A DNA stretch of 64,000 nt from Fimbriimonas ginsengisoli Gsoil 348 (GCF_000724625.1 NZ_CP007139.1:2108001-2172000), one strand, 5' to 3'. Shown: positions 48,228 to 55,965, counted from the first letter of the stretch. A program made the numbers and translations. The notes: generated by a model not told the origin, from the sequence alone.

Positions 48228-48256
48228 AATAAGAGGCGCGCTCCGCGCCTCTTATT
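48228..48256. repeat. Perfect palindrome at the esterase stop codon (family E)
   Basis: Arms AATAAGAGGCGCG and CGCGCCTCTTATT with a 3-nt loop. The right arm contains the stop codon of the minus-strand erythromycin esterase gene (48255-48257). Confidence 0.85.
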
Positions 48257-49568
48257 AGAGGGCGTAGGGATACGTTTCCGGTGGCTCGACCAAAGACCGC
48301 TCGTTCAGATGCAAAGGATGCAACGCCGAGGTTTGCTCGAACGCGATTAAAGCGTCATACCGATTGATCAGGTCGGTCGGAACGTAGTTTCCCCAACGCT
48401 CGCGGTCGGGGTGGTAGACCACTCCAATCGCACGGTGGCCGCGCCGACGCCGGAATTCCGGCACGTCCCTCAGATCGGAGGTGAGCACGAGCCGGTCCAT
48501 TGGATCGGCAGAGTGGAGCAAATGCTCCCAACTCCCGTCTCGGGCGGCGGGTACCGACATCGCTTCCATGGGTGCACCCCAATAGTCGCCGGCGATTACC
48601 TCGCCGCCGTAACCGGAGAATCCCACGATGAAACAATCGTCGCGGCCTTGTCGGCTCCGGACGAGCTGACCCACGTTGACCATGCCGGCTTCCGCCATAT
48701 CGGTTGCCCGCGCGTCGCCCACATGCGTGTTGTGCTCCCATACGATCGCCTTGGAGGTGGGACCGTAGTGGACCAGAAGGCGGTCGAGCGTATCGGTCAT
48801 GTGGGTGTCGCGGACGTTCCAAGAACTGTCGTCGTTCTGGATCATCGTTCGGTAATAGCGTTCCGCTCCCACGGCGGCAAGCGCGTTCTGCTCCGCGTTG
48901 AAGTGCGACTCGACGTCGTCGGGAAAGTCCGGCCTTGCAAGCTGCAGTTCCCGAAGCACCCTTACCACCTCGTCCTCGCAATCTTCCGATACATAACGAA
49001 GCGACATCGCGTAGTTCTGCGGATCGCGCTCAAAAGGATGGAGGCAGGCCATCGCCTTCATCGCGGCGGGTACCGCCTGCTGGTGATACTGCCGCAAGTG
49101 GATCAGCACCGCATCGAGCGACTCCCAGAGGGAATAGACGTCAAGCCCGTAGAAGCCAACCCGGTGGCCAACCGGCAACCTTTCATTGTGAGCGCGGAGC
49201 CAGGTGGCGAACGCCACCACTTCCCAGTTCGCCCACATCCAGGTCGGCCAGCGGTTAAACCGTTTGAGGACGTCGCGGGCATGGTCTCCACCGTCGGCGT
49301 ACCCTTTGACAAACCGGTTCACCGCGTAGCAATCGGGCCAATCGCCCTCAACGCCGACGAAGGAAAATCCTTTCTCTACGATCAGCCGCTGCGAGAGCCG
49401 GGCCCGCCAGGAGTAGTATTCGCTGGTGCCGTGGGAGGCTTCGCCGATCAACACGAACCGGGCGTCGCCGATCCGGTCGATCAAGTCGTCGAGCGGATCT
49501 TCGAACGCGAGCTCTCGGGACCGGCTCTTTAGCTCGGCCAGAAGCCGAGGGTCTTCATCGTGCAACAT
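48255..49568 (-). CDS. Erythromycin esterase family protein
   Basis: About 437 residues from the ATG at 49568 (49598 is in frame as well). The family core is clear: FVLIGEASHGTSEYYSWRAR, FVGVEGDWPDCYAVNRFV, MWANWEVVAFATWLRAHNER, KAIVWEHNTHVGDARATDMA, and FIVGFSGYGGEVIAGDYWGA when read in parts. Members range from macrolide esterases to enzymes of unknown substrate; resistance cannot be inferred. No signal peptide. The small ORF at 49611 lies 42 bp upstream on the same strand and may share its promoter. The stop codon is contained in a perfect palindrome. Confidence 0.9.
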   Translation of the reverse strand: MLHDEDPRLLAELKSRSRELAFEDPLDDLIDRIGDARFVLIGEASHGTSEYYSWRARLSQRLIVEKGFSFVGVEGDWPDCYAVNRFVKGYADGGDHARDVLKRFNRWPTWMWANWEVVAFATWLRAHNERLPVGHRVGFYGLDVYSLWESLDAVLIHLRQYHQQAVPAAMKAMACLHPFERDPQNYAMSLRYVSEDCEDEVVRVLRELQLARPDFPDDVESHFNAEQNALAAVGAERYYRTMIQNDDSSWNVRDTHMTDTLDRLLVHYGPTSKAIVWEHNTHVGDARATDMAEAGMVNVGQLVRSRQGRDDCFIVGFSGYGGEVIAGDYWGAPMEAMSVPAARDGSWEHLLHSADPMDRLVLTSDLRDVPEFRRRRGHRAIGVVYHPDRERWGNYVPTDLINRYDALIAFEQTSALHPLHLNERSLVEPPETYPYAL

Positions 49569-49610
49569 GTCCTTGAGTGGGGGACCTTGCGAGCCCACCT
49601 CAAGGTTCCG

Positions 49611-50120: not shown

Positions 50121-50597
50121 CTACTTGCCGGCCGGGACGACCTTGGTGGTTTCGACCTGGGTAACCGTCGACTGCAGCCGCCACTTCCCGGCCTGTCGAA
50201 TCCAGGTGTCGAGGTAGCGATGAATGTGGATCATCTTTAGGTTTTTCCCGGTGATCGGGTCGATGGTCGCCTTGGCCGACGTTTCATCGGAAATCACCTT
50301 GGCGGTGTCCCCTTGCACGGACACGCTCGCGATCTTCGTTTCGTAGGCGGTGGTTGGCTGTTTCGACTCCTTTCGTTTTCGCAGGCTCGCTTCGTAATCT
50401 TTACGGGCGATTACTTTGCCGGTGTAGGTGTGAAGCGTGTAGTCGGGGGCCAGGATGTCGAGGATGGTGTCGACGTCGTTCTGCACCGCGGCTTTCGCCC
50501 ACTTCTTATATTGCGAATCGATGTTCGACCTAACGGAACTCTGGCCGTATCCGACCACAGCCAGACCGAGCAGTACGAAGGCGGTAAGTTGCCTCAT
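50121..50597 (-). CDS. Secreted SnoaL/NTF2-like (DUF4440) protein
   Basis: A signal peptide (MRQLTAFVLLGLAVVGYGQ) precedes a ~139-residue NTF2-like fold (IDSQYKKWAKAAVQNDVDTI, LDILAPDYTLHTYTGKVIAR, IHIHRYLDTWIRQAGKWRLQ). Such domains bind or modify small ligands. It is the last gene of an overlapping operon, sharing 4 bp with cbiO. Its export suggests action outside the cytoplasm, alongside the DUF4331 proteins. Confidence 0.82.
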   Translation of the reverse strand: MRQLTAFVLLGLAVVGYGQSSVRSNIDSQYKKWAKAAVQNDVDTILDILAPDYTLHTYTGKVIARKDYEASLRKRKESKQPTTAYETKIASVSVQGDTAKVISDETSAKATIDPITGKNLKMIHIHRYLDTWIRQAGKWRLQSTVTQVETTKVVPAGK

Positions 50598-51355
50598 CGT
50601 GCCGACGCCTCCGCGAAGGTCGCTTCAACCAGATTGGCTCGTTCCAACAAGACGACGTCCTCGAGAATTTCGGCTACCGGTCCCGAGGCGAGGAGGCGGT
50701 GATCTTCGTCCAAGATCAACGCCCGATCCGCGATCCGGCGGGCGACGTCGAGGGTGTGCGTCGCGACGATCGTCGTCTTCCCCGCCGCCTGGAGCTGCTG
50801 CAGCGTGCGGATCAACCATGTTTGCGACCTCGGGTCGAGGCCCAGGAATGGCTCGTCGAACATGAGAACCTGGGGGTTCATGCTGAGGACCGAGGCGATC
50901 GCGACCTTTCGCTTCTCGCCTCCGCTAAGGCGGAATGGCGGGCGCTCGGCAAGGTGCTCGATTCCCAGGAAGCTGAGCACGTCCAATGTTCTCGCCCGCG
51001 CCTCGGCTTCGGACATGCCAAGTTGGCGTGGGCCGAACGCGACTTCTTCGAAGACGGTGGCATTGAAGAGCTGAGCGTCGGCGTTTTGAAAGACGAAGCC
51101 GATACTCTGCCGAAACTGTTGCCGGAACCCCGGCGACTGGAGCGATCGTTCCGACAACTCGTGTCCGTTGAAGGAAATCGATCCTTCGATATGATGGAGC
51201 AGGCCGGCCAGAAGCCGTAGCAAGGTGGACTTCCCACTCCCATTGGCCCCCATGATCACCAGGCGCTCGCCGTTCGCAATGCTTAACGAGAGATCGTCGA
51301 GGGCGAGAACCCCGTCCGAATAGCGGCAGTCGATGTGCGAAAGCTCAAAGAGCAT
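50594..51355 (-). CDS. cbiO: Cobalt/nickel ECF transporter ATP-binding protein
   Basis: An ECF-type ATPase of 253 residues, CbiO/EcfA group. Walker A GANGSGKS (about 35-42), Q-loop VFQNADAQLFNATVFEEVAFG, signature RLSGGEKRKVAIASVL, Walker B VLMFDEPFLGLDPRS, H-loop VATHTLD. The AQLF-type Q-loop is typical of cobalt/nickel or vitamin ECF ATPases. It overlaps the CbiM-N-Q fusion by 11 bp and the NTF2-like gene by 4 bp. Only one ATPase gene is present, so a homodimer is expected. Confidence 0.92.
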   Translation of the reverse strand: MLFELSHIDCRYSDGVLALDDLSLSIANGERLVIMGANGSGKSTLLRLLAGLLHHIEGSISFNGHELSERSLQSPGFRQQFRQSIGFVFQNADAQLFNATVFEEVAFGPRQLGMSEAEARARTLDVLSFLGIEHLAERPPFRLSGGEKRKVAIASVLSMNPQVLMFDEPFLGLDPRSQTWLIRTLQQLQAAGKTTIVATHTLDVARRIADRALILDEDHRLLASGPVAEILEDVVLLERANLVEATFAEASAR

Positions 51356-53255
51356 GAAGAATTCCTCCCATTAGAACGATGGCGGCGGTCAGGCCGGCCC
51401 CAGTGGCGACCGCGACGAGATCACGGCGCCTCCACGGAGTCGGCCGAGCAGGCCGGCTTGGGCCGTCGAACGAGCGCGCCTGCATAGCGAGATGGGTTTC
51501 CTCCGTAAGCGCGAGGCTCTTGGCGAAAAGGACGGCGGCGCCGGTGCCGGCATAACTTCGAGCTTGTTGCCGGTTCATCGCTCCCGGCTGGCGCGCGGTG
51601 CGCGCTTCGACCATTTCGGCCAGCGTCTCCACCAGTACGAATAGGTACCGGTAGGTGAGGGTTGCCGTCGATAGGACCACCTTCGGAACCCCCAGGCAGG
51701 CGAGCGATCGAAGGAGATCGTGCCAGCGCGTGGTCTGGCTCCAAAGAAGCGAAAGCTGGATCCCGGCAAATAATCGCAGAAGGATCATGGCGGCGGAAAC
51801 AAGCCCCGGACCCGAGAACGAAATTCCCAGAAGCGAAATCGCGGTCGGTCCCGGAGTCACCGCCCGGAGCGAAACCGGTATGGCGAGCACGAGGCCGAAG
51901 AAGGCGACGGCTCCCGCCACCCTTGTCACCAGCTCGCGCAGAGGGACCCGGGAAGCCCAGGCCAGTCCGACAGAAAGCGAGATCACCGCGATGAGCGCAG
52001 TCGGCGTTCTCGCCAGGCTCACGGCGACCATTGCACTGAGAAATCCAATCGTCTTGGCGACCGGATTCAGCAATTGCAAGAATCCCGGCATCCGGGCAAC
52101 GACTTCCGACGCCACCGTCTTCGCGATGGCGCTCCGCATCTTAAGGATCGTCCGCTCCATCCACGGGGATTTCGCCACGGGAGAGAGCGGGAGCGGAGGA
52201 TTGACGTCTCTGAGCCAAGCCGGCATCGAGCTACGCGGCGCTCCGGGCTTCGACGCCGGAGAGGGGGAGGGCCTCGGCTTTCGTAGAATTCCTCTTGCAA
52301 AGAGTGCTACTAATCCGCAGCCTACCAATGCGCTGACCATATACCCAACGATCTGCCAAGGCTTCCCGCTCGCCCCGGCAAAGCCATAGTCGGGAAGCAA
52401 GGGTGTGATCGCTTCGTGGCGGGCCGCCATCCCGGCCGGTGCGTAGCCGACCATCGTCTTGATCTCCGCGAGATCCCACTCCCCCCATGCGCTGCCGCTC
52501 GCAAGGAGTCCGAGAGGGGTTAGAGCCAGCACCCAACCCAGTCGCCGGGCGAGGCGTATCCCCGCTCCGACCTTTGGCGGCATTCCGGCCCGCGCGAGTT
52601 CGGGGAACGTTTGCCACAAGTAAGCGAGTGCCGCCATCGTGACGATCGCTTCCACCGGCCCCGCGATCAGAAGGTGCGGCAGCAGCATCGCGGGGAGCGT
52701 GACGTTCAACCCATACGGGCAGTACATCGCGTGTCCAACCGCATCGTGCGCGAGTATCGGCTGGAGCCCCAGGAGGGTTCCCGCGCAGAGGGAAGCGGCC
52801 ACCGTTCCGGCATAGGCGCCAAGCCCGGCCCCGACCGCCTTCCAAGGAGACCCGTCGCTCGCCCGCCCGGCGAGCATGCGGTAAGAGTAGTAACTGACAA
52901 AGCTGGCAACGAACGCCATATCGAAGCAGTTCGCCCCGATGGAGAGGACCCCCCCGTCGCCGAAGAGGAGCGCTTGAATCGTCAACGCTAGCGTCATCCC
53001 GAGCACGGCCGCCCAGGGCCCTACGAGGATCGCGAGCAGCCCGGCCCCCAGCGCATGCGCGGTGGTGCCGCCGATCGCCGGGATGTTGAACATCTGGATC
53101 GCGAAGCAGAACGCGGCCCCGATCGATAGCAGCGGCGCCTGCTTCGTCGTCAGCTCCCGATTCGTTCGCTTTGCGGCTACGATCCATATCGGGACCATGA
53201 CGGCAAACGTGGCGGCTTGAGTCACCGGGCTCAGGTACGCGTCAGGGATGTGCAA
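51345..53255 (-). CDS. CbiM-CbiN-CbiQ fusion, cobalt/nickel ECF transporter membrane component
   Basis: A 636-residue membrane protein combining the whole membrane part of a Co/Ni ECF transporter. Residues 1-210 are CbiM: MHIPDAYLSPVTQ contains the conserved metal-binding N-terminal Met-His, with about six membrane segments. About 215-320 is a CbiN/PDGLE-like stretch (ITPLLPDYGFAGASGKPWQI then a membrane segment). About 370-636 is CbiQ with the coupling-helix region (TARQPGAMNRQQARSYAGTG). CbiM, N and Q are usually separate genes. It starts 14 bp inside the TPR gene end and overlaps cbiO. Metal specificity (Co or Ni) cannot be decided, and no cobalamin riboswitch is visible upstream. Confidence 0.88.
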   Translation of the reverse strand: MHIPDAYLSPVTQAATFAVMVPIWIVAAKRTNRELTTKQAPLLSIGAAFCFAIQMFNIPAIGGTTAHALGAGLLAILVGPWAAVLGMTLALTIQALLFGDGGVLSIGANCFDMAFVASFVSYYSYRMLAGRASDGSPWKAVGAGLGAYAGTVAASLCAGTLLGLQPILAHDAVGHAMYCPYGLNVTLPAMLLPHLLIAGPVEAIVTMAALAYLWQTFPELARAGMPPKVGAGIRLARRLGWVLALTPLGLLASGSAWGEWDLAEIKTMVGYAPAGMAARHEAITPLLPDYGFAGASGKPWQIVGYMVSALVGCGLVALFARGILRKPRPSPSPASKPGAPRSSMPAWLRDVNPPLPLSPVAKSPWMERTILKMRSAIAKTVASEVVARMPGFLQLLNPVAKTIGFLSAMVAVSLARTPTALIAVISLSVGLAWASRVPLRELVTRVAGAVAFFGLVLAIPVSLRAVTPGPTAISLLGISFSGPGLVSAAMILLRLFAGIQLSLLWSQTTRWHDLLRSLACLGVPKVVLSTATLTYRYLFVLVETLAEMVEARTARQPGAMNRQQARSYAGTGAAVLFAKSLALTEETHLAMQARSFDGPSRPARPTPWRRRDLVAVATGAGLTAAIVLMGGILHAL

Positions 53256-54606
53256 CTTCGCCTCCTAAACTTGCCATCTTCCGAGCCGCGACACCGTCGA
53301 AGTTCGGGTCGATCGCCATCGCGGCCTTCAAGTAGCGATCGGCCTTGGAGTGGTCGTTGGCGGCGGCGTAGATGGTTCCGGCATGGAAGAGGAGCATCGG
53401 ATCGCGGGTTCCGCGGGCCAGCGCTTTGGCGATCGCTCCGACTGCCTCCTTCTTATCTCCCCTCTGCAAGCAAACCCAAGCCAATGTATCGAAAGCGTAG
53501 ATGTCGCGACGCGACTCAAGATCGCGCAACGCCGCCGCGTACGCTCCGCCGAGGTCGCGCCGATGGTCGGCGCAGAAAATGGCGTACTGGCGGTCCAGCC
53601 GGTGCCCGTGGGTTCCGGCAACGGGGGCGACCTCGTGCATACCATCGTTCATCCCGGATGGGCGCCCAACAAGCTCGGCGACCTTGGCGTATTGGGCCTC
53701 GGCCTTGTCTGGCTGTCCGAGTAAAGCGTATGCGTCGCCGACGAGGGCGCGAACGTCGGCCATCTGGGCGATCGCGTCGCTCTTGGTTCCCCAATCGATC
53801 GCCTCCTGCCACCGGCCGTCTTGGAAGGCGACCCGGGCGAGGCCGGCCATCGCCTTGTAGTCTCGCGGATAGAGCGTGAGGGCGGTTTGAAATTCGCGGC
53901 GGCTTTCGTCGTGCCGCCCCATTTTGTCGAGCTGGATGGCGGTTCGAGTGTGGAACCATGCGACGGCGTCGCTCGGCATCCCCGCACTGCCATCGGCTTC
54001 GCGGGCGCAAAATTGAAGGAGGCGGAGAGCGTCCGCCGGCTTGCCGTCGATGTCGAGGAGTCGAGCGACGATCGTTTTGCCCGAGGCGTCGCCGAAGGCT
54101 CGGGAGTTCGCCTTGATCAGGTTCCTTGCCTCGTCATAGCGTCCGACCTCGATCAAGCACTCGACGTGTGAGCGGGTCGTATGGTCGTCGGAAACTTTCG
54201 CCTTTTCGGCCGCCAGGCACTGGGAGAGGGCGTCATGGAATCGATGCTGCTGCAGGAGGCTCTGGACGAGTTTGTTCCAAGCGCCGACGTTGCCCAACTT
54301 GCGGAGGGCGAGGCTCTTTCTCGCGGCGGCTTCCGCTTTCACGGCGGTGGCGGAATCGTCCGACTCCCGGCTTCTCGCGAGGTATTCGGAGCTAAGTCTG
54401 GACCAACCGAGCGCCCCGTTCGGATCACGCCTTACGGTCTCCTCGGCGGTGCGAATCCGAGCGTCGATCCGACTGGAGTCGAACGGAATGTGGATCGGCG
54501 GCTTAGAAACTGTCGCCCAGTAGCCGGGCCGGCTATACCAGGAGGCGTAGCCCATCCAACCACCGAACGCGGCGACACCGAATGCTAAAAACATGGGGGG
54601 TTTCAT
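53242..54606 (-). CDS. Membrane-anchored TPR-repeat protein
   Basis: A 454-residue protein with an N-terminal hydrophobic anchor (MKPPMFLAFGVAAFGGWMGY) and TPR-like helical repeats through the rest. Examples are NGALGWSRLSSEYLARSRES, VGAWNKLVQSLLQQHRFHDA, VGRYDEARNLIKANSRAFGD, MGRHDESRREFQTALTLYPR and ALLGQPDKAEAQYAKVAELV. It probably acts as a scaffold facing the periplasm. It sits between the DUF4331 pair and the ECF transporter. DUF4331 and TPR genes side by side occur in other bacteria in my recollection, there often with a HupE/UreJ metal permease. Confidence 0.85.
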   Translation of the reverse strand: MKPPMFLAFGVAAFGGWMGYASWYSRPGYWATVSKPPIHIPFDSSRIDARIRTAEETVRRDPNGALGWSRLSSEYLARSRESDDSATAVKAEAAARKSLALRKLGNVGAWNKLVQSLLQQHRFHDALSQCLAAEKAKVSDDHTTRSHVECLIEVGRYDEARNLIKANSRAFGDASGKTIVARLLDIDGKPADALRLLQFCAREADGSAGMPSDAVAWFHTRTAIQLDKMGRHDESRREFQTALTLYPRDYKAMAGLARVAFQDGRWQEAIDWGTKSDAIAQMADVRALVGDAYALLGQPDKAEAQYAKVAELVGRPSGMNDGMHEVAPVAGTHGHRLDRQYAIFCADHRRDLGGAYAAALRDLESRRDIYAFDTLAWVCLQRGDKKEAVGAIAKALARGTRDPMLLFHAGTIYAAANDHSKADRYLKAAMAIDPNFDGVAARKMASLGGEVAHP

Positions 54607-54670
54607 TTCAGAGCTGCTCTAGAGGCTGGTTCGGCGCGCCCGGGAGAGGGACCCGGGCGCGCCGGTCGGG

Positions 54671-55285
54671 CTATCTGGGGTCGCCCAGATAGGGGAAGGT
54701 GCCTTTGAAGTGCTTGCCGCTGGCGTCCACGTTGTCGCTGGTGAACGCCGGTACCTCTTTGCCGTCGTCCGGCGCGAGGCCGAGCGTGGAGATGGTGTTG
54801 CCGAACACCACGCCGAGCGAGATGTCTACGACATCGTCGCCGAGCTTGCGACCGCCGAACTTGCCGCCGGTTGCGCCGCCGGTCTCGTAACCGAGGTAGG
54901 CCGCGTTGCCGGACTGGCTGAGGTCGACCTTCATGACATCCGGGACGAGGACGGCCTTGACCACTGCGGTCGTCGCCGCCGACCGCCCGGCCGGGAAGGT
55001 CATGAACGACTGAATGTCGTTCGCGAGGTTGGCGCTGTCTTCCGAAGGGGTTGCCTCGTCGTTGATCTTGTGGCGGTTGTTGGCGACGGTGGCGAACACT
55101 TCGTTCACGACCGGGCGGGCAAGACGATCCACTTGGTGGAAGGTGCCGCCGCTGGCGACGCTGGTGGTCGTCCACATGCCGATGATGTTGTTGGTCGGCC
55201 CGGGCGTATGGTTGGTGGACGAAGATCCGCCGCAGCCGGCGAGGACGACGAAAGGAACGAGGATTAGGGCTTTGTTTCTGATCAC
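54671..55285 (-). CDS. DUF4331 C-terminal half, lipoprotein
   Basis: A 204-residue lipoprotein (ALILVPFVVLAGCGGSSST, lipobox AGC at residue 17). The mature part holds FHQVDRLARPVVNEVFATVA, KVDLSQSGNAAYLGYETGGA and GGRKLGDDVVDISLGVVFGN, all of which correspond to the second half of DUF4331 proteins. Its start overlaps the stop of the first-half gene by 4 bp. A normal DUF4331 protein is one chain, so here the two halves are separate exported polypeptides with different export signals. Function of the family is unknown. Confidence 0.85.
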   Translation of the reverse strand: MIRNKALILVPFVVLAGCGGSSSTNHTPGPTNNIIGMWTTTSVASGGTFHQVDRLARPVVNEVFATVANNRHKINDEATPSEDSANLANDIQSFMTFPAGRSAATTAVVKAVLVPDVMKVDLSQSGNAAYLGYETGGATGGKFGGRKLGDDVVDISLGVVFGNTISTLGLAPDDGKEVPAFTSDNVDASGKHFKGTFPYLGDPR

Positions 55286-55965
55286 TGCAGGCTCCTCTTC
55301 GGAAGCTCCACTACGATGGAGAGGACGTTGTACTTACCGGTCGACAGGAAGTCTTTAGCGACGCCGGGGGCGCGCCAGGAACTCTGCTTCGGAGTATTCG
55401 GATCGGCGACCGGAGTTCCGGTGAGCGGAGTGGCTCGATCCGGAAAGATGTTGAGGAACTGTTCGAGGTCGAAGAAGAACGGATCTTCTCTTCCGCCGGC
55501 GAAGACGGTCATACCGCTCTTGGGGCTGAACGGAGCGTTTAGGGTGCCGTGGACCGCCAGCGGCGTTTCTTGGACACTGTCCTTGCCGGTCATGGACGGC
55601 CGAACCGGGCCAGAGATGGAGACGGTTTGCGCGGCGCCCGCGCCGGTGAACTTGGCCTGAATGACCTTGTCCTCGACTCCGTCGCCATTGTTGTCGATCT
55701 TGAATTGGTACAGGACATTTGGGTCGAATCCGACGGTGGTTCCTTCACCCGATCCGATCAAGGGGTGAACGTTCATGACGAGAACGATGTTGTCCGCGTT
55801 GGTCGGACTCGGAAACATGTAAACGTCCGTGATGTCGGTACCGGGGTTAGCGGCGATATCGGGGGTGTCGGCATGGTCCGATGCTCGGACCTTGCCGATC
55901 AACATGAGCGGCGCGAGGAGCGCTACCATGCCGAGGGCGATGTACTTCTTTGTTCGATGGGTCAC
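55282..55965 (-). CDS. DUF4331 N-terminal half, secreted
   Basis: A 227-residue protein with a signal peptide (KKYIALGMVALLAPLMLIGK-VRA) and the classic DUF4331 opening SDHADTPDIAANPGTDITDV, YMFPSPTNADNIVLVMNVHP, followed by LYQFKIDNNGDGVEDKVIQ and FAGGREDPFFFDLEQFLNIF. The last part (NVLSIVVELPKRSL) ends where the second-half gene begins. The SDHxD and DITDVY segments are rich in acids and His and could bind metal, which is inference. It is the first gene of the operon; a GGGAG ribosome site is 9 nt upstream of the ATG. Confidence 0.88.
   Translation of the reverse strand: MTHRTKKYIALGMVALLAPLMLIGKVRASDHADTPDIAANPGTDITDVYMFPSPTNADNIVLVMNVHPLIGSGEGTTVGFDPNVLYQFKIDNNGDGVEDKVIQAKFTGAGAAQTVSISGPVRPSMTGKDSVQETPLAVHGTLNAPFSPKSGMTVFAGGREDPFFFDLEQFLNIFPDRATPLTGTPVADPNTPKQSSWRAPGVAKDFLSTGKYNVLSIVVELPKRSLQ

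Follow-up and report, generated by a model that had tools for sequence, protein, structure and literature searches.

Split DUF4331, TPR, and CbiMNQO genes of Fimbriimonas ginsengisoli: a candidate system in which an exported metal-binding complex may serve a nickel/cobalt-type transporter

Metal permeases can be paired with exported proteins: in Escherichia coli, the Ni/Co permease RcnA has a periplasmic partner, the small protein RcnB. NikABCDE-type ABC importers combine an exported binder with a permease and an ATPase. ECF importers normally function without a binding protein (PMC7689651), and in CbiM/NikM the first two residues contribute to substrate binding (PMC6828968). Here, we describe a locus of Fimbriimonas ginsengisoli Gsoil 348 in which a CbiMNQO transporter is joined to exported proteins of the DUF4331 family, which spans at least eight phyla and has no assigned function. 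In the window, as we call the 64,000-nucleotide stretch analyzed (NZ_CP007139.1:2108001-2172000), ORF calling places six minus-strand genes at 50121-55965, packed with overlaps of 4, 14, 11, and 4 bp and a single 64-bp gap, exactly as the original prediction, made from the sequence alone, had them (Table 1). The genome of the window, a single 5.23-Mb contig, has no second DUF4331 locus, and the named relatives with a corresponding locus are Fimbriimonas/Fimbriimonadaceae MAGs (Armatimonadota). Downstream of the operon and on the same strand lies an erythromycin-esterase-family gene (48255-49598; PF05139, E 9e-119).

Table 1. Features of the DUF4331-TPR-CbiMNQO operon (window coordinates)
Feature	Position	Strand	Details
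DUF4331 N chain	55282..55965	-	227 aa, GTG start; ORF; PF14224 E 4.1e-35
N chain predicted Sec signal peptide	residues 1-28		PF14224 profile starts at residue 29
Ser-Asp-His codons, predicted mature N chain residues 1-3	55873..55881	-	(-3,-1) rule, V-R-A/S-D-H (slash, cleavage)
DUF4331 C chain	54671..55285	-	204 aa lipoprotein; ORF; PF14224 profile 223-421, E 8e-21
C chain lipobox VVLAGC, Cys18	55234-55232	-	lipobox conserved among split loci
Intercistronic hairpin, DUF4331 C chain/TPR	54632..54664	-	13-bp perfect stem, 7-nt loop
TPR protein	53242..54606	-	454 aa, N-terminal membrane anchor; Pfam TPRs
CbiM-PDGLE(CbiN-like)-CbiQ fusion	51345..53255	-	636 aa, TTG start; PF01891, PF13190, PF02361
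CbiO-type ATPase	50594..51355	-	253 aa; GANGSGKST, LSGGEKRK, VLMFDEP; PF00005
Secreted NTF2-like (DUF4440/SnoaL) protein	50121..50597	-	158 aa; PF14534 E 5.9e-11

Each of the described systems resembles this locus in part. Like CbiMNQO/NikMNQO, the window has a CbiM with His2 and His67, a CbiN/PDGLE-like region, CbiQ, and CbiO; unlike them, it carries the M, N-like, and Q parts on one chain (an arrangement common in Armatimonadota), joins them to exported DUF4331-TPR, and holds neither B12 or Ni-enzyme genes nor a riboswitch. HupE/UreJ and NicO (RcnA/NiCoT) loci of other phyla share the gene order DUF4331, TPR, transporter, but their transporters are single-protein secondary transporters and their DUF4331 is usually one chain. 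RcnA/RcnB offers the combination of a permease with an exported partner; RcnB, however, is unrelated to DUF4331, and RcnA exports whereas CbiMNQO imports. The NikABCDE type provides the working scheme of exported binder, permease, and ATPase, although DUF4331 has no match in the PDB by sequence search. By analogy, the window system would work like a binder-permease pair.

We posit that the exported DUF4331 and TPR proteins form a metal-binding complex that serves or feeds the Ni/Co transporter, a tentative reading in which capture and import are plausible and to which we give somewhat less than an even chance. The N and C chains of DUF4331 would be exported separately and combine into one β-sandwich/helical protein, lipid-anchored through the C chain, whose N chain offers a free S-D-H amino terminus that could chelate Ni(II) (or Co or Cu) in the manner of an ATCUN site. 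The membrane-anchored TPR protein would dock the assembly to the permease, which in this operon is the ECF importer CbiMNQO, and the metal would be handed to CbiM, at its N-terminal Met-His/His67 site, for ATP-driven import.

The transporter itself is readily recognized. Pfam finds CbiM (E 8.2e-53), PDGLE, and CbiQ along a single chain, and NCBIfam agrees on CbiM, CbiQ, and an ECF-type ATPase; CbiQ scores above its cut-off (TIGR02454, 121.7 bits), the ATPase matches TIGR04521 and TIGR01166 below the CbiO equivalog cut-offs, and the evidence for CbiN is the PDGLE domain match alone (residues 242-323). With its M-H-I-P-D amino terminus and His67, CbiM would be the S component, CbiQ the T component, and CbiO the ATPase, the set of parts expected of an ECF importer by sequence. 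The single-chain fusion, to which the original prediction drew attention, is present but does not set the operon apart: Armatimonadota genomes that lack DUF4331 commonly have CbiM-CbiQ or CbiMNQ fusions, and in a CbiMNQ tree DUF4331-linked and unlinked copies mix within one genus clade. The arrangement of DUF4331-TPR followed by CbiMNQO and the NTF2-like gene occurs in three genomes of one genus, in one of which DUF4331 is a single chain and CbiM and CbiQ are encoded by two genes. The NTF2-like gene is kept only in the CbiMNQO-bearing variant, with an equivalent position in loci L027 and L033.

A scan of GTDB genomes yielded 79 loci, which, with Armatimonadota loci added and duplicates removed, made 103 nonredundant loci from a sampling biased toward window-like sequences. 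In nearly all of them, DUF4331 is followed by a TPR gene of one orthologous family. A Ni/Co-type transporter comes next in 58 of the 80 loci, the window included, that could be tested (TPR gene present and enough contig), counts that are not independent because many are from Cyanobacteriota. These transporters belong to unrelated families whose representatives were confirmed with Pfam, namely NicO type (47 loci, two with an extra NiCoT), HupE/UreJ_2 (8), and CbiM of CbiMNQO (3); the match in L069 is a broken or partial gene. DUF4331-TPR beside HupE/UreJ, which the original prediction had suggested, turned up in Armatimonadota, Cyanobacteriota, Verrucomicrobiota, and proteobacterial plasmids. 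On independent, annotated plasmids, DUF4331-(TPR)-HupE occurs in Lichenicola, Pseudoalteromonas, and a comamonad, Rhizobium has DUF4331-HupE, and Miltoncostaea has DUF4331-TPR; HupE/UreJ after DUF4331 spans alpha-, beta-, and gammaproteobacterial plasmids, the plasmid copies of Methylocystis and Streptomyces stand alone, and a thaumarchaeal contig pairs DUF4331 with a NicO-like gene scoring under the Pfam cut-off. On plasmid pNSMS103 of Nostoc sp. MS1, the NicO-type transporter (L216, 7576-9066) is annotated as “sulfite exporter TauE/SafE”, probably a misnomer, since NCBIfam matches it best to a Ni/Co efflux transporter. On the plasmid of Pseudoalteromonas CF6-2, genes for a sigma-70 family factor and an anti-sigma factor (L222, 3006-4222) directly precede DUF4331-Ig-TPR-HupE and could possibly provide metal-responsive control.

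The neighborhood is conserved across phyla. CbiMNQO appears to fill the slot held elsewhere by NicO or HupE, as NicO is absent from all 34 Fimbriimonadaceae genomes searched, and the occupancy of that slot by other Ni/Co permeases supports the proposed replacement. That NicO, HupE, and CbiMNQO replace one another at a single position of the operon points to a shared substrate class, Ni/Co-type metal, and as far as gene linkage can tell the metal theme is well supported. Could DUF4331-TPR nevertheless be a general envelope pair that permease genes adjoin by chance? Most Fimbriimonadaceae would suit this view: DUF4331-TPR lacks an adjoining transporter in 17 of their 21 loci, and CbiM has no match in the tested genomes of such loci. 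Outside this family, however, a transporter adjoins in 54 of 59 loci, drawn from unrelated families that replace one another, against a background of 2 Ni/Co-type transporter ORFs per ~1.0 Mb elsewhere in the loci surveyed; several phyla are involved, though the loci are not phylogenetically independent. We consider the absence of any functional link very improbable.

What the metal would be for is less evident. The original prediction described an ECF transporter without cobalamin or Ni-enzyme genes and without a riboswitch, and the searches agree: B12 genes, Ni-enzyme genes, and Rfam families are all absent from the window, and its whole genome has no cobalamin riboswitch. CbiC was found neither in that genome nor among the 20 genomes searched, which excludes de novo cobalamin synthesis as the transporter's purpose; in the window genome, which has two B12-binding domains, cobalt import for B12 synthesis is unlikely because the de novo route was not found. 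Nor was a known Ni customer found in this genome: there was no [NiFe] hydrogenase, and urease and LarA gave sub-threshold matches only. The uptake reading is weakest here, where a destination for the metal is missing. Also against import are the 17 Fimbriimonadaceae loci without a transporter, the RcnA-like character of NicO, the restriction of the CbiMNQO linkage to three genomes of one genus, and the ability of ECF transporters to function without a binding protein.

An unlikely alternative is that DUF4331-TPR acts as RcnB might, buffering or sensing excess periplasmic Ni/Co and modulating whichever permease is present, exporter or importer, rather than feeding an importer. In its favor, NicO, the commonest partner, has its best score with the RcnA efflux model (yet below the RcnA cut-off), the Pseudoalteromonas plasmid has an ECF sigma/anti-sigma pair in front of the module, and no known Ni enzyme was found in the window genome. 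On the other hand, CbiMNQO belongs to a family of importers, import is also the activity of HupE/UreJ members (PMC7689651), and a metal sensor gene was not found in the operon.

A further feature of the locus is the division of DUF4331. PF14224 scores 122.3 bits on the N chain (profile positions 1 to ~240, in two stretches) and 75.2 bits on the C chain, both above the cut-off of 27, so that the domain, usually uninterrupted in one chain, is divided between two chains in the window. Pfam, signal peptide prediction, and the lipobox all agree with the split first proposed, into an exported N half and a lipoprotein C half. Inspection of chain ends identified the two-ORF form at ~29 loci in Armatimonadota, Eremiobacterota, UBP12, and Gemmatimonadota; a lipoprotein signal, recognized by eye or by pattern, is present on the C chain of every split locus but one, from Nostoc. 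That a single gene had been broken by a sequencing error or had become a pseudogene, a concern raised with the original prediction, is ruled out by this recurrence, by the one-contig genome, and by the lipoprotein signal that the second gene owns. The exception, in Nostoc mirabile CHAB5784 (L145, 10234-10274), has two DUF4331 ORFs but no lipobox and probably reflects a frameshift rather than the conserved split. Both split and fused forms are present among the at least five DUF4331 loci of one 2.6-Mb Eremiobacterota genome (G262, source of L093).

There are two split points, which differ in the placement of a single strand: the strand IGxWxTTS either (i) begins the C chain, as in the window (IGMWTTTS), or (ii) stands at the end of the N chain. 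When L089, a homolog that is naturally fused, is modeled with AlphaFold2 (pLDDT 88.7, pTM 0.85), this is strand 251-262 and the two split points fall in the loops on either side of it, and the window C chain modeled alone forms a hairpin and helices (pLDDT 81.5). The DUF4331 tree contains a supported Armatimonadota clade (99/81; 24 rows, 22 of them split genes) within which the fused L033 and L090 nest; the simplest reading of these sequences is that the two arose by secondary re-fusion and that the split boundary moved between classes. A domain that can be divided before or after a given strand, and that is rejoined in L033 and L090, is best explained, we infer, if the two chains assemble into one fold. 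With its movable strand and two apparent re-fusions, two-chain DUF4331 is well suited as a model of how the gene of an exported protein can be split. Foldseek and VIA-align returned weak β-sandwich matches only (4jpq, E 1.7e-3; CBM9, 1i82; Ig folds, Z <6), searches with the C chain and against BFVD gave nothing useful, negatives to which we attach no weight, and assignment to a known fold was set aside.

Of 79 alignable DUF4331 sequences from several phyla, 78 have a predicted mature N-terminus of X-X-His immediately after the signal-peptidase site, with triplets S-D-H, A-S-H, or A-D-H in fixed register behind an AxA-type cleavage site, as predicted by the (-3,-1) rule and alignment register. 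With a crude automatic predictor of cleavage, His falls at +3 in 53 of 80 DUF4331 proteins vs 3 of 320 other secreted ORFs from the same loci. Proteobacterial and actinobacterial plasmid copies with a signal peptide read A/S-S-H, and homologs without one (L217, L218, L219, and L150, from Methylocystis, Streptomyces, Rhizobium, and the thaumarchaeon) start M-S-N-H, M-S-H-H, or M-A-D-H. In the split pairs L136 and L141, other residues stand in for the N-terminal His (FDIQDS), and these may be paralogs that lack the metal site.

A free X-X-His N-terminus defines the ATCUN motif, and the DUF4331 terminus is thus a candidate ATCUN-type Ni/Cu site; serum albumin (D-A-H) shares the free N-terminus and His at position 3 predicted here but is an unrelated protein. 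The permeases also carry N-terminal His residues (CbiM; NicO, predicted A/HP[LM]GNF in 37 of 37 scorable sequences; HupE, A/HD in several), which suggests that metal could pass from N-terminus to N-terminus, from DUF4331 to the transporter. The proposal that the exported halves capture metal is strengthened by this predicted site, but its other part, a coupling to the adjacent transporter, seems not to be strict in Fimbriimonadaceae. The conserved His could instead serve the DUF4331 fold. Copper is another conceivable ligand: ATCUN sites, known from albumin, bind Cu(II) strongly (PMC7701195), and such a terminus together with N-terminal-His permeases could handle this metal. The associated permeases, however, are all of Ni/Co families, and CbiM retains His2 and His67, making copper improbable.

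DUF4331 might also be exported as a metalloenzyme whose active-site metal lies at the N-terminus (compare Ni-SOD and the His-brace), the two chains building one active site and the transporter tuning metal supply. Many invariant Asp/Arg residues are distributed across both chains, the His register is kept even in homologs without a signal peptide, and DUF4331-TPR persists without a transporter; part of the acidic residues may be structural, since D-N-N-G-D-G-V-E-D looks like a calcium-binding loop. We judge an enzyme quite unlikely, as an importer does not supply metal to a Sec-exported enzyme and, as weak evidence, no enzyme match stood out in fold searches.

Taken together with the preferred reading of DUF4331-TPR as a metal-binding complex serving the transporter, transporter linkage and the predicted N-terminal site give DUF4331 a bench-testable metal-binding hypothesis. 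A broader proposal, possible but doubtful, is that DUF4331 represents a new class of extracytoplasmic Ni/Co binders acting through N-terminal X-X-His, made as two exported chains in several phyla with a boundary repeatedly moved and re-fused, and docked by the TPR protein to interchangeable, unrelated transporters, including an ECF importer otherwise without a binding protein. Our search of a library of 5.39 million papers found DUF4331 named nowhere and no description of the DUF4331-TPR-Ni/Co transporter association.

In the TPR family, H121 and G155 are invariant and F123 and G230 nearly so (83-sequence alignment). The spacer hairpin of the window is predicted at -36 kcal/mol (dinucleotide-shuffle z -5.5), and DUF4331-TPR spacers, structured in most loci, have a median z of -3.6 (n=38), whereas 150 control spacers have -0.8 (p 8e-8), in loci related by descent and with control genes taken from ORF calls in the same loci. 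Such a hairpin could keep the DUF4331 level above that of the permease. In most cyanobacteria, the DUF4331 and TPR genes nearly abut and have no hairpin, and in two Fimbriimonadaceae type-A loci (L034, 10934-11848; L035, 8423-9319) a pilin-like gene with a prepilin-type N-terminus stands between them.
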